Source of the DNA: Paludibacteraceae bacterium
GTDB taxonomy: Bacteria; Bacteroidota; Bacteroidia; Bacteroidales; Paludibacteraceae
DNA length: 50,046 nucleotides
Direction of reading: 5' to 3'
Assembly: GCA_017430235.1 (NCBI GenBank)
Contig: JAFRNH010000014.1
Span: 1 to 50,046, forward strand
Shown here: piece by piece, positions 10,861-31,000 of the stretch
Layout of the letters: each line of letters opens with the position of its first letter
How positions within the stretch are numbered: the stretch's first letter is position 1
Notes under the pieces: generated by a model
What the model was told of the DNA's origin: nothing
What the model saw: only the letters and a program-made list of their open reading frames with translations
Database searches by the model: none
Translations under genes and position numbers: made by a program

Positions 10861-10890
10861 AACAGGAGCACTTCAGTAAGTGCTCCTGTT
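10861..10890 (-). terminator. Intrinsic terminator of trpB
   Basis: A perfect 13-bp inverted repeat (AACAGGAGCACTT with a 4-base loop) lies 20 bases after the trpB stop. On the minus strand the stem runs into TTTTATTT. Confidence 0.85.
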
Positions 10891-10909: not shown

Positions 10910-12277
10910 TTACTTAACAATCTTTTCCAACTTGCTTACATTGTTTTGGATCACCTCATCAGGCAACTCATAATTAGTAAGGTCGCCTGCGATGTATTGA
11001 TCGTAAGCAGACATATCTATCAATCCATGGCCAGACAAGTTGAACAAGATAACTTTTTGTTTGCCTTCCTCTTTAGCCTTCTTAGCCTCACGGATAGCAG
11101 CAGCAATTGCGTGAGAAGATTCAGGAGCAGGGATGATACCTTCAGCTCTTGCAAATAGAGTAGCAGCTTCGAACGTCTCGATTTGAGGGATATCAACACC
11201 TTTCATCATACCATCTTTAATCAACTGACTAACGATTGTTCCTGCACCATGATAACGAAGTCCGCCAGCATGAATATGCGCAGGAGCGAAGTTGTGACCC
11301 AAAGTAAACATTGGCAACATAGGAGTATAACCAGCCTCATCACCGAAGTCATATTGGAAGACACCACGAGTCAACTTAGGACAAGATGCAGGTTCTGCAG
11401 CATAGAACAATGTATTCTTTCCGTCCAAAATATTATGTCTCATGAATGGGAAAGAGATACCGCCGAAGTTAGAACCACCGCCAAAGCAACCGATGATGAT
11501 ATCTGGGTATTCGCCAGCCATTTCCATTTGTTTTTCTGCTTCTAGACCGATGATAGTCTGATGAAGTGTAACGTGATTCAACACACTACCCAATACATAT
11601 TTACAATTAGGAGTACCCATAGCCAACTCAACAGCCTCAGAGATAGCAGTACCCAAACTTCCTTGATAAGTAGGATTAGCAGTTAGGATATCTTTACCAG
11701 CGCGCGTACTCATACTAGGAGAGGCAATCACCTGTGCGCCGAATGTTTGCATAATAGAACGACGGTAAGGTTTTTGGTGGTAGCTTACCTTAACCATAAA
11801 GACAGCCAATTCCAAACCGAAAGCCTTAGCGGCATAAGAAAGAGCGGCACCCCACTGACCAGCACCAGTCTCTGTAGTAATGTTTGTCACACCCTCTTTT
11901 TTACAATAGTAAGCTTGAGCCAAAGCAGAGTTCAACTTATGAGAACCAACTGGGCTTACACTCTCATTTTTAAAATAGATATGAGCAGGTGTATCTAGTG
12001 CTTTCTCCAAGCCGTACGCACGAACCAACGGAGTGGAACGATAGCTCTTATACATATCACGAACTTCTTCTGGAATTTCGATCCAAGCATCTGTTGTATT
12101 CAACTCTTGTTCTGAACATGCACGATTGAAAAGACCACACATCTCTTCAAGTTTGATTGGCTGCTTTGTTTGTGGATTCAGCATTGGGAGAGGCTTGTTT
12201 TTCATATCAGCCACAATGTTATACCATGCTCTAGGTATCTCATTCTCCTGCAAGAAAAATCTTTTTTGTTTTTCCAT
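10910..12277 (-). CDS. trpB: Tryptophan synthase beta chain, TrpB2 type
   Basis: 455 residues. Tryptophan synthase beta condenses indole with serine using pyridoxal phosphate. Visible family features are the PLP lysine K114 in PVGSHKLNSA, the glycine-rich cofactor loop CFGGGSNFGG, the TETGAGQWG substrate loop and the C-terminal FNLSGHG segment. The N-terminal extension and these motif variants match the longer TrpB2 class rather than the classical TrpB1 (about 390-400 residues). No trpA or other trp gene is nearby, so it may salvage indole or act without a TrpA partner. It is preceded by a tryptophan attenuator (12312-12455), direct sequence evidence that tryptophan controls it. Confidence 0.93.
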   Translation of the reverse strand: MEKQKRFFLQENEIPRAWYNIVADMKNKPLPMLNPQTKQPIKLEEMCGLFNRACSEQELNTTDAWIEIPEEVRDMYKSYRSTPLVRAYGLEKALDTPAHIYFKNESVSPVGSHKLNSALAQAYYCKKEGVTNITTETGAGQWGAALSYAAKAFGLELAVFMVKVSYHQKPYRRSIMQTFGAQVIASPSMSTRAGKDILTANPTYQGSLGTAISEAVELAMGTPNCKYVLGSVLNHVTLHQTIIGLEAEKQMEMAGEYPDIIIGCFGGGSNFGGISFPFMRHNILDGKNTLFYAAEPASCPKLTRGVFQYDFGDEAGYTPMLPMFTLGHNFAPAHIHAGGLRYHGAGTIVSQLIKDGMMKGVDIPQIETFEAATLFARAEGIIPAPESSHAIAAAIREAKKAKEEGKQKVILFNLSGHGLIDMSAYDQYIAGDLTNYELPDEVIQNNVSKLEKIVK

Positions 12278-12311
12278 TTTCTACTATTATATCGTTAAAA
12301 ATTATTTTCAT

Positions 12312-12346
12312 AAAAAAAGCAGCAGGTCATGGAGGCCTACTGCTTT
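12312..12346 (-). terminator. Attenuator terminator hairpin in the trpB leader
   Basis: Minus strand: AAAGCAGTAGG (12336-12346) pairs with CCTGCTGCTTT (12316-12326) through 11 positions including one G-U, with a 9-base loop, followed by seven Ts (12312-12318). It lies before the trpB start, so it can end transcription prematurely. Confidence 0.85.
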
Positions 12347-12394
12347 ATATCGTTCGAACATTGCATATATCGATTGACGGATCCTCCATTTATA

Positions 12395-12442
12395 CTAGGA
12401 CCAGCGCCACCAACGTCTGCTATTATTCGTATATTGATTCAT
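12395..12442 (-). CDS. trpL: trp leader peptide (15 residues, three Trp)
   Basis: The frame ATG to TAG encodes MNQYTNNSRRWWRWS. Three of the last five residues are tryptophan, encoded in the run TGG TGG CGC TGG. The start lies about 13 bases after the predicted transcription start, and the stop lies five bases before the anti-terminator segment. This placement lets a ribosome at the stop mask segment 2, and a ribosome stalled at a Trp codon leave it free. It is a regulatory peptide and is not expected to have a function as a protein. Confidence 0.85.
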   Translation of the reverse strand: MNQYTNNSRRWWRWS

Positions 12443-12462
12443 ATCTATTTTCTTTATGCATA

Positions 12463-12492
12463 CAAATATAAAGTATTTTTCAATCGTACAAA
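12463..12492 (-). promoter_or_regulatory. Promoter of the trp leader and trpB
   Basis: Minus strand: TTTG at 12489-12492, 18-base spacer, TATATTTG at 12463-12470. The predicted start of transcription is near 12455, giving a leader of about 180 bases before trpB. Confidence 0.7.
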
Positions 12493-12585
12493 AATTTTTC
12501 ATACGAATTTTCAAAACACTCTTATTAATGGATTAGAATAATAGAGAAAGCAGACTCAATGTTCATAAAGGAGAACACACTCTCT

Positions 12586-12610
12586 GGTTGACAGGATTTC
12601 CTGTCAAGCC
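12586..12610 (-). other. Strong hairpin of unknown role between the PagL-like gene and trpB
   Basis: TTGACAGGA and TCCTGTCAA form a near-perfect inverted repeat, extended by a GG/CC pair across one bulged base. No T-run follows on either strand, so it is not an obvious terminator. It lies about 50 bases downstream of a possible small membrane-peptide gene and could be its mRNA 3' structure or a protein-binding site. Confidence 0.4.
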
Positions 12611-28054: not shown

Positions 28055-31000
28055 ATGGGTATCGTGAAACAATCTTCTCTTTTCTTTATTGCGAAATTAT
28101 GCATTTTAGGAGTGTTACTTGGCGGCACATCCACAACTTGTCGTGCTCAAGATCCTGTTATACTGCCCGATTCTTGTTTCAAATCTGTTATATACCATCT
28201 GCAAGAGCAACATAGTATTTTAAAACAAAATAAGATTGGCTACGATAGCATCATCCCCATCAAATCGAAAAAAACAGTTCGCATCTATGCAAACAAATAT
28301 TTGGAAAGCATACCTTTTCGTGAAGAGGTGGTGAAATCGATAAAAGACTCCCTGAAAAAATATCTGACCAGCAATTACAGCAACTATAAGGTTGAGATGT
28401 ACATCAACAAATATGAGATATCAGACCTTGTACCCAATATTTACCGAGAGAATTACAAGATTGACAAAGAACGTCTTGAAAAGCACCGATCTGATGGTAC
28501 GGCTTTCGTCACAAACCTGAGTAATTGGTCTCAACCCACTCTCGGTTTGCTCAACAACAACCTTGCCGTATGGCCCAGTCACGGCTGGTATTACGAGCGC
28601 AAAGAAAACGAATGGGTTTGGCAACGTCCTCATCTGTTTAGCGTAACGGAAGACACCTATACGCTTGGATATGTTCTACCCTACCTCGTTCCTATGTTGG
28701 AAAACGCAGGCGCTTACGTCATGCTTCCAAGGGAACGCGACACACAACTCAACGAAGTAATCGTAGACAATGACGACCACGAGACATTCTTCTATGAAGA
28801 GTGTCATGACAAAGTAAACAAATGGAGACGAGGCGACACCACTGGATTCGCCAATCCTCGTGAACTATATCGTGAAGGAGAAAACCCTTTCTGCTATGGC
28901 ACATACAGAAAAATCAAAACCAGCAAAGAGGGTATGGGATATGCCAACTGGACTCCTGAAATTCCTGAATCGGGCGACTATGCCGTCTACATCTCCTATC
29001 ATTCATACGAGAACAGTGCCACCGACGCACACTATACCGTATACCACACGGGCGGTGCCACAGAATTCCTCGTCAACCAAAAAATGGGCGGAAGCACATG
29101 GATCTATTTAGGCACCTTCAATTTCAAGAAAGGTACCAACCCTAGCATCGGACGTGTGGAACTCTCTAACAAAAGCAAAAGCAACAACGATATCATAACG
29201 GCAGACGCCGTCAGATTCGGTGGAGGATATGGCAACATCGGTCGATTGAACCAACAAGACTCCGTCATCTACAGTAACAAACCTCGCTACTTAGAGGGCG
29301 CTCGTTACTGGCTTCAATGGGCTGGTTATTCAGACTCAATCTACAACAGAAACGATTACAAAGATGACTACAAAGATGACTATATGTGCCGTGGTCACTG
29401 GGTAAACGACCTCATCGGAGGTTCCTCCAAATCGCCTAACACCACAGGCAAGAACATTCCAATACAACTATCCATGGGATTCCACACGGATGCTGGTCAA
29501 GTGTTTAACGACAGCATCATTGGAACAATGTCCATCTATATGTCTGAGAGCAATGGTTCACGCAACTATGCCAACGGGCAACGCAGAATCGTCTCTCGCG
29601 ACCTAGCCGATATCATACAAACCCAAATTGTCAACGACATTCGAAACACCTACCGTCCCGATTGGACAAGAAGAAAGTTAACCGACGCATCTTACTATGA
29701 AGCAAGAGTGCCAGAAGTTCCCACATTCCTGTTGGAACTACTCTCCCATCAAAACTTCACCGACATGCGTTACGGATTAGACCCTCACTTCCGTTTCACT
29801 GTAAGTAGGTCTATTTACAAAGGTATACTGAAGTTCTTAGCCTACCAGCAAGAAAGAGAATACGTTATACAGCCTCTACCTGTAAATACGTTCGGTGCAG
29901 AATTTGTCAACGAGGAGAACAATGTGATACGCCTTAGTTGGGCGGCACAGCAGGATAGCCTCGAACCAACGGCGACACCAGACTATTACATCCTCTACAC
30001 AGCCAATGACGAAGGTGGTTGGAACAATGGTGAAATCATCCGTTCAACATTTACACATGTAACATTAGAGCCGAAAAAAATATACCGATTTAAAGTGACC
30101 GCCGTCAACAAAGGAGGTGAAAGTTTTCCTTCTGAAGAATTGGCTGTCGGATATGTGCCTAATACACCTAAAACGGCACTCATCATCAACGGTTTCCATC
30201 GTGTATCCGCTCCTGAGTGGTTTGACACACCAGACTACTCTGGATTCCTCGACAACCTAGATCAAGGCGTTCCCGACAAGTACGACCTCAGCTATACAGG
30301 CAGCCAGTACGCATTCAATAAAAGATCCAAATACAGGAACAATGCCAATCCTGGACATGGAGCTTGTTACGCTCTGTTTGAAAACGAAAAGATAGCAGGC
30401 AACACCTTCAATTTCACATATATTCATGGAAAAGCCATCATGGCTGCAGGTTACTCGTTTGTCTCTTGTAGCGACGAGGTGGTGAAAGCGGGACTGATTC
30501 GCTTGAAAAACTACAGATTCCTCGATTTGATTTTAGGCGAGGAGAAAAGTACTTTAGTCGGACAAGAGACTCGCTACCAACTGTTTCCTAGTAGTCTGAG
30601 ACAACCCATACGACAATATCTAATGAGACAGCAAGGTAACATCTATGTCAATGGAGCTTATGTTGCCTCCGATCTTTATGAGCGAGACTCATGCGACACA
30701 GAGGCTATCCAATTTGCAGAACGCGTATTGAAATACAAATTAGGTGAGAGTAAATTAAAAACAAAGGGATTGCTATCCAACTATTTCTCCCCATGGAAAA
30801 TATTCAAACAGAAATATTACCATTATTGCAACATTCCAAACTCTAAGCAATACGCAGTGGAGGTGCCGGATGCGCTCGACATATCCAACGGGTCCAAAGT
30901 GATTCACTCCTTCGAGGGAAGCAACCTTCCTGCCACCGTGGGCTATAACGGGCGATACAAAACCATCATCTCGTCTGTTCCTTTCGAAAGCATTGAAAGT

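Follow-up and report, generated by a model that had tools for sequence, protein, structure and literature searches.

The enterobacterial trp attenuator (RF00513) combines tandem Trp codons, alternative pairings designated 1:2, 2:3 and 3:4, and a terminator. In other phyla, trp genes are governed by Trp-binding proteins, T-boxes or riboswitches, and Vitreschak and others (2004) reportedly predicted some attenuators in Bacteroidetes/Chlorobi. A group writing in 2010 stated that, prior to its own case in Firmicutes, it knew of leader-peptide systems only in Proteobacteria and Actinobacteria (PMC2965389). A Flavobacterium transcriptome gave strong clues of leader-peptide attenuation before amino-acid operons (PMC9723704), 5′ UTRs containing short ORFs were noted in Bacteroides thetaiotaomicron (PMC7366714), and a survey of seven Bacteroidetes/Chlorobi genomes detected no T-box (PMC2494555). 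The preliminary description of the locus considered here regarded amino-acid attenuators as little described in this phylum. That view needs correcting, since Trp-leader attenuation is already catalogued there: the Bacteroidete tryptophan peptide leader RNA, RF01692 (Bacteroid-trp), dates from 2010 (PMC2864571, Table 1). The Trp-leader design is known in the phylum (RF01692); what appears to be new is trpB2 as the regulated gene, since the open-access literature searched, as far as its accessible text goes, nowhere places that gene under an attenuator.

RF01692 resembles the trpB2 leader in its phylum and in having a Trp-rich leader (for example MNSILTVNKFWWWHLRIS), an antiterminator and a T-tailed terminator. 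Unlike the trpB2 leader, it precedes trpB1 of the trp operon, and its antiterminator is mostly TCGTGAG/CTCACGA. trpB1 followed it in 19 of the 20 loci read (from 45 places), the other one lying at a contig end. Since only two of nine operon loci scanned reached the cut-off, the RF01692 model covers only part of the trp-operon leaders. At E ≤ 0.001 it was found in 44 of 200 genomes of the family, 27 of them over the cut-off, and in none of 16 same-genus genomes. It had no match (gathering cut-off 49 bits) in the window, by which we mean the whole stretch of 50,046 nucleotides analysed here, from a Paludibacteraceae bacterium (genome G000).

Upstream of a trpB2 gene in this window lies a leader that is very probably a ribosome-mediated tryptophan attenuator, as judged from its sequence and that of its relatives. 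The features are as follows.

12463..12492, minus strand: promoter-like TTTG-N18-TATATTTG, from a pattern match and the placement of TAnnTTTG in relatives
12395..12442, minus strand: leader ORF of 15 codons, MNQYTNNSRRWWRWS and a stop, from translation
12412-12407 and 12403-12401, minus strand: leader Trp codons 11 and 12, and 14, from translation
12397-12395, minus strand: leader stop TAG, then 5 nt to ATGGAGG (12389-12383)
12397..12402, minus strand: segment 1 (GGUCCU), overlapping the end of the leader ORF, from the fold and from pairing in relatives
12380..12389, minus strand: segment 2 (AUGGAGGAUC), of which 12385-12380 pairs with segment 1 and 12389-12383 with segment 3
12329..12335, minus strand: segment 3 (CCUCCAU), which lies in the terminator loop and pairs in the antiterminator, from a 7-bp perfect inverted repeat
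12346-12316 with T-run 12318-12312, minus strand: intrinsic terminator before trpB2, −14.3 kcal/mol, z −3.8
10910..12277, minus strand: trpB2, a TrpB-like PLP enzyme of 455 aa, from NF009057, TIGR01415 and PDB chains
10861..10890, minus strand: intrinsic terminator 3′ of trpB2, with a 13-bp perfect stem, a 4-nt loop and a T-rich tail

The 15-codon leader with three Trp codons (all within four codons) and the stop 5 nt before the antiterminator segment are all present as first described, on the minus strand. The three alternative pairings and the T-tailed terminator are likewise there, with one correction: segment 3 is the loop of the terminator and not its 5′ arm. Helix 1:2 joins 12402-12397 to 12385-12380, helix 2:3 joins 12389-12383 to 12335-12329 (7 bp, perfect), and helix 3:4 joins 12346-12336 to 12326-12316 (11 positions, 91% complementary), all on the minus strand. 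Tandem Trp codons, a stop near segment 1, the three alternatives and a terminator before a structural gene are shared with RF00513, from which this locus differs in phylum and sequence, in the placement of segment 3 in the terminator loop and in the control of a single gene, trpB2. In the long gap between a PagL-like gene and the leader there is an inverted repeat, TTGACAGGA-TT-TCCTGTCAA (12588-12607), perhaps a terminator or operator.

The consensus promoter of the preliminary description is likewise present, as a promoter-like site. The pattern TTTG-N18-TATATTTG, which we take to be the Bacteroidota promoter consensus, matches at 12463-12492, but it is weak alone, with six matches in the window against 3.4 expected and at least six in 15 of 100 shuffles. 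In the comparison set of non-redundant leaders, 44 of 72 have TAnnTTTG at a distance of 15–110 nt 5′ of their first Trp codon, against 158 of 1,440 shuffles; the full two-part pattern occurs in only 18 of the 72. Scanning for an E. coli consensus promoter gave nothing useful at the leader site. From the promoter-like site, transcription would start about 15 nt 5′ of the leader ATG.

The product of the gene scores 693 bits against NF009057 (cut-off 366) and 595 bits against TIGR01415 (cut-off 519), and its residues 6–427 of 455 align with the solved TrpB2 chains PDB 4qys and 6hte, which bear the name tryptophan synthase beta chain 2; 6hul_B, which scores highest among solved chains, carries the depositors' name tryptophan synthase beta chain 1. 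GSHKLN and ETGAGQWG, which we take to be the PLP-lysine region and a loop, respectively, are kept by comparison with solved TrpB2 chains. Near-identical TrpB2 proteins occur in the uncultured Bacteroidales bacterium RUG11121 (100%) and in Paludibacteraceae bacterium RGIG7865 from water-buffalo reticulum (99%), and several of the next-closest come from Paludibacteraceae of sheep and yak rumen. The next large same-strand ORF past trpB2 encodes a Sel1-repeat protein, and trpB2 is probably monocistronic because the 13-bp perfect hairpin and its T-rich tail stand directly 3′ of it. Control of a solitary trpB2, as originally proposed, is supported, and neither trpA, IGPS nor TrpB1 was detected in the genome of the window (assembly 88% complete). 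When the trp-operon region of the related genome G014 (L299, flanks included) was compared with G000, only short repeats and one 43-base match were found; the absence of the operon from G000 may be an assembly gap. A 28-bp palindrome, GTAGAGACGCACGGCCGTGCGTCTCTAC, belongs to a repeat family present on many G000 contigs, and in G014 it sits just 5′ of the trp operon leader (L299:2722-2749).

Regions upstream of trpB2 were surveyed for short ORFs immediately 5′ of a T-tailed hairpin, irrespective of which residue was enriched, with the reverse complement and five rounds of dinucleotide shuffling as controls. The 171 regions comprised 51 loci and 120 stretches; L030 and L048, whose matches were truncated or lay at a contig edge, were excluded, and the trpB2 places outside the 171 include those of G096, G133, G137, G150 and G157. 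At least two Trp in five codons were found in 65 of 171 regions, in 0 of 171 reverse complements and in 1 of 855 shuffles, and at least three in 32, 0 and 0, respectively. The next residues at the lower threshold were Asn (58), Leu (51), Val (43) and Arg (42) and at the higher one Arg (13), Asn (12) and Val (12), counts that may include neighbours or other frames of Trp leaders. With two Trp required, a leader went undetected in 106 of the 171 regions; certain automatic calls, for example L064 and L140, may be false.

Within the genus, 12 of 14 trpB2-bearing genomes have the leader, which is thus not universal; G007 is without it, and none was seen in the 199 nt available upstream in G008. It is missing in four g4 genomes (G018, G074, G099 and G116). 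Roughly 20 of 80 named loci have a leader within 350 nt of trpB2, as judged by eye, and the named loci of Bacteroides, Parabacteroides, Paraprevotella and T. forsythia have no Trp leader within that distance. Across the phylum, 29 of 70 further trpB2 loci were read, and six (L340, L341, L343, L346, L347 and L350), all from other classes, show a Trp-rich ORF with a T-tailed hairpin 3′ of it; the four of the 29 that come from other orders within the same class show no such leader. In L013 and L014 the attenuator hairpin ends 244 nt 5′ of trpB2, as against about 40 nt, leaving space for a second promoter.

The trp operons of relatives carry leaders too. In L299 the order is trpB1-E-G-D-C-F-A, the TrpF-sized protein having no match at the cut-off used, and 13 of 14 relatives' trp operons read have a Trp leader and terminator of their own, with an antiterminator mostly of the TCGTGAG/CTCACGA type in L298–L311. 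The same-genus operon leader (for example L299, MERNFFKYWRWQGLRFENRKSDRVFLEANV) has the design of the trpB2 leader and differs in the gene it precedes and in its antiterminator (TCGTAAGT/ACTTACGA in L298, near-identical to L299). A model built from the trpB2 leader, R1, also picks up trp-operon leaders (context checked in G006, G054 and G056). Several R1 matches considered as attenuators were rejected, the second one in G000 (C106, L385) and those in L386, L387, L389–L393 and L396 reading as plain terminators. Another R1 match, L395:412-588 (G040:C68, about 28811-28987), is a leader rich in branched-chain residues, MIMKNLLNIVLVVVVVISEMK, with a T-tailed hairpin directly before ilvD, likely a Val/Leu/Ile attenuator in Bacteroidales. 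The leaders from other classes, together with at least one of the branched-chain type ahead of ilvD, suggest that leader-peptide attenuation in Bacteroidota exceeds one Rfam family. Just 3′ of the trp operon of G018, at a contig end, there is a match to a group II intron domain (RF00029; L304:13294-13382).

For the relation to trpA we compared 89 genomes of the family that were at least 90% complete and had the region read. Leader and trpB2 without detected trpA occurred in 13, leader with trpA in 17, trpA without a detected leader in 39 and neither in 20; as two Trp were required, leaders with one Trp, such as MKSVNSFFYWRSTNYHY (L018), were scored as absent. A link between the leader and a missing trpA was considered and dropped, there being no correlation (17/13 versus 39/20, Fisher p 0.49). 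Seven near-complete same-genus genomes with the trpB2 leader carry trpA as well; G005, G012 and G013 (99, 99 and 93% complete) have neither trpA nor IGPS. Because same-genus genomes have trpA and 13 of 14 operons have their own leaders, trpB2 appears to belong, as a second member, to a regulon that responds to Trp starvation. In the 13 genomes with leader and trpB2 in which trpA was not found, TrpB2 can hardly serve the normal de novo pathway, so indole salvage is the natural reading there.

A Trp attenuator might also be placed on a TrpB2 that is a spare beta subunit of de novo synthesis or that joins indole to another co-substrate, such as the O-phosphoserine used by some TrpB2. We consider this improbable, though by no means negligible: the seven same-genus genomes with trpA speak for a spare subunit, and the 13 near-complete genomes in which trpA went undetected speak against it. 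An earlier comparison adds that most trpB2 genes lying outside operons belong to species that also have a trpB1 within an operon (PMC1854888), which also favours the spare subunit. The Thermotoga TrpB2 and BT_RS23500 of B. thetaiotaomicron belong to the same enzyme family and convert indole to tryptophan (PMC11535334). In that study, BT_RS23500 helped an E. coli ΔtrpA strain only beside the wild type, which the authors attributed to indole cross-feeding (PMC11535334). Loci of the B. thetaiotaomicron type differ from the present one in that the named Bacteroides trpB2 examined are without a Trp leader within 350 nt. The preliminary description concluded from a response to Trp starvation that this TrpB2 makes tryptophan; the conclusion fits the regulation and the one published complementation of a relative.

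How far the RNA itself behaves as an attenuator was judged from folding and comparison. The 2:3 fold, computed on the stretch free behind a stalled ribosome, has an energy of −13.2 kcal/mol, against −14.3 for 3:4 and −6.2 for 1:2. Folded alone, 3:4 stands out from shuffled sequences (z −3.8), but for 1:2 and 2:3 z is about −0.5, within the range of shuffles; support for these two is therefore comparative. By its geometry, the 7-bp 2:3 helix, separated from segment 4 by only 2 nt, should preclude the full terminator stem, so 2:3 and 3:4 should be mutually exclusive.

Ninety-nine leaders were taken from 264 regions: 171 of trpB2, 80 named loci, in part from genomes already represented, and 13 trp-operon regions, the last picked for already having a leader. 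Thinning at 85% similarity left 73 (61 trpB2, 12 operon). In the 61 trpB2 leaders the linker pairs with its own hairpin at a mean of −19.5 kcal/mol, as against −14.1 for crossed combinations, and the ungapped helix score is 18.8 against 14.2; 0 of 20,000 permutations reached either value, a count that differs from a strict probability in that kinship among the 61 is handled by thinning alone. As the strongest linker-hairpin helix is other than 2:3 in some leaders (L006, L010, L117 and L120), this test concerns linker-hairpin pairing in general. Among the trp-operon leaders the own-versus-cross test is weak (680 and 2,278 of 20,000 for the two scores) because most of them share one antiterminator.

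Of 38 chosen leaders, 37 could be aligned for comparison of the segments. The letters of 2:3 differ while the pairing is kept: ATGGAGG/CCTCCAT in the window, AGGAGGGT/ACCCTCCT in L124, AGGTGGGT/ACCCACCT in L129, AGGTGGAT/ATCCACCT in L131 and L141, AAGTGGAG/CTCCACTT in L182 and CAAGGGA/TCCCTTG in L244. The 2:3 helices of L010, L015, L116, L119 and L146 are short. In the close set of 10 distinct sequences, 96% of the cells of 1:2 and 3:4 together are paired (reached by 0 of 500 shuffles), and their covariation score exceeds all 500 shuffles and every slide. Helix 1:2 has 95.6% of its cells paired and two pairs changed on both sides, and helix 3:4 has three such pairs; the total of five was reached by 5 of 500 shuffles. 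Further pair types showed no excess for 1:2 and 3:4 in this set (475 of 500 shuffles). The preliminary description had looked to relatives for conserved Trp codons and covarying stems, and both were found, except that 2:3 gave no significant covariation among the 10 sequences (77 of 500), being nearly invariant within the genus. Overall, the comparisons support the view that leader, Trp codons, terminator and pairings have been kept through sequence change.

These results bear on a rival account, in which a short transcript from upstream simply ends, constitutively, at the hairpin, the Trp codons are coincidental and trpB2 has its own promoter. The space left in L013 and L014 lends it something, as do 1:2 and 2:3, which alone fold no better than shuffles. 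Nevertheless we judge it very unlikely, given that 65 of 171 regions have a Trp cluster ahead of a T-tailed hairpin, against none of 171 on the other strand, and that linker-hairpin pairing is maintained despite sequence change; in the window, moreover, just 34 nt separate the T-run from the trpB2 start codon, and no TAnnTTTG was seen there by reading.

The leader peptide has the cores WWRW, WWRR, WWW and WRW across relatives and diverges outside this Trp/Arg core (MNQYTNNSRRWWRWS, MNVFKNYSKRWWRRF, MKTQSANKFWWRWS, MLQANAQYWWWQPFI). A functional small protein, with the hairpin as its terminator and no relation to trpB2, would account for an ORF with start, stop and conserved residues, but this can be set aside almost entirely, since the peptide diverges outside the core whereas the RNA pairing persists, and a similar design precedes the trp operon. 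Hardly any weight falls, either, on Trp being sensed by a Trp-binding protein, T-box or riboswitch instead of the ribosome, as on trp genes of other phyla, since such sensors do not call for UGG codons that are clustered, translated and set at a constant spacing from segment 2. At gathering score, Rfam (T-boxes included) gave nothing over the window but one tRNA, and no family at any of 20 trpB2 loci scanned; at E ≤ 10, region 12200-12600 gave three weak sRNA matches and no RF00513, T-box or other Trp sensor, and the T-box survey was negative for its seven genomes (PMC2494555).

In silico, the stalled ribosome was set at the first Trp codon, with a footprint taken to reach 11 nt past that codon. 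The mean fraction of the hairpin front paired upstream was 0.64 with the ribosome on Trp, 0.19 with it at the stop and 0.37 on naked RNA. The stalled value exceeded the stop value by over 0.05 in 71 of 73 leaders (op_L309, without a stop value, was scored 0), a difference that is partly trivial because a stalled ribosome leaves more sequence free. Shuffling the linker lowered the stalled value to 0.39; the observed one was higher in 70 of 73 leaders, and in 43 it was reached by 0 or 1 of 20 shuffles. The window's own leader gave 0.45 stalled, 0.16 at the stop and 0.11 naked, and its stalled value was reached by 3 of 20 linker shuffles (mean 0.29). A Trp codon cluster, an intrinsic terminator, a conserved antiterminator and, in silico, an antiterminator exposed by stalling and masked at the stop were thus all found.

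In the mechanism we propose, polymerase would initiate some 15 nt 5′ of the leader start codon, with a ribosome trailing behind. When Trp-tRNA is ample, the ribosome would get to the stop codon and cover segments 1 and 2; with no ribosome, segment 1 would pair with segment 2. In either case segment 3 would not be taken by segment 2, the 3:4 terminator would form and transcription would stop before trpB2. When charged Trp-tRNA is scarce, the ribosome would halt on the UGG codons, covering segment 1 and freeing segment 2. Segment 2 would then pair with segment 3, the future terminator loop, ahead of the synthesis of segment 4, allowing readthrough into trpB2. TrpB2 would then produce Trp, most likely from neighbours' indole in genomes without trpA; in genomes with the operon it might be a high-affinity second beta subunit. 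We infer stalling, readthrough and indole as the substrate here from the arrangement of the locus and its relatives.

Taking the phylum as a whole, we lean slightly towards the view that across Bacteroidota a stand-alone trpB2 forms a second arm of the response to Trp starvation, under an attenuator of its own, and that in trpA-less lineages it is the only tryptophan synthase, fed by indole. The role of the extra TrpB2 present in many bacteria and archaea is unsettled, and a conserved Trp switch on the gene alone names the relevant signal: the product would be needed when Trp is scarce. If this is right, the leader marks the physiological role of TrpB2, and trpA-less bacteria subsist on the indole of their neighbours, with a salvage enzyme that is on only when charged Trp-tRNA drops. 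The leader would then serve as a sequence mark for likely indole-scavenging bacteria of the rumen and gut, where indole cross-feeding matters.
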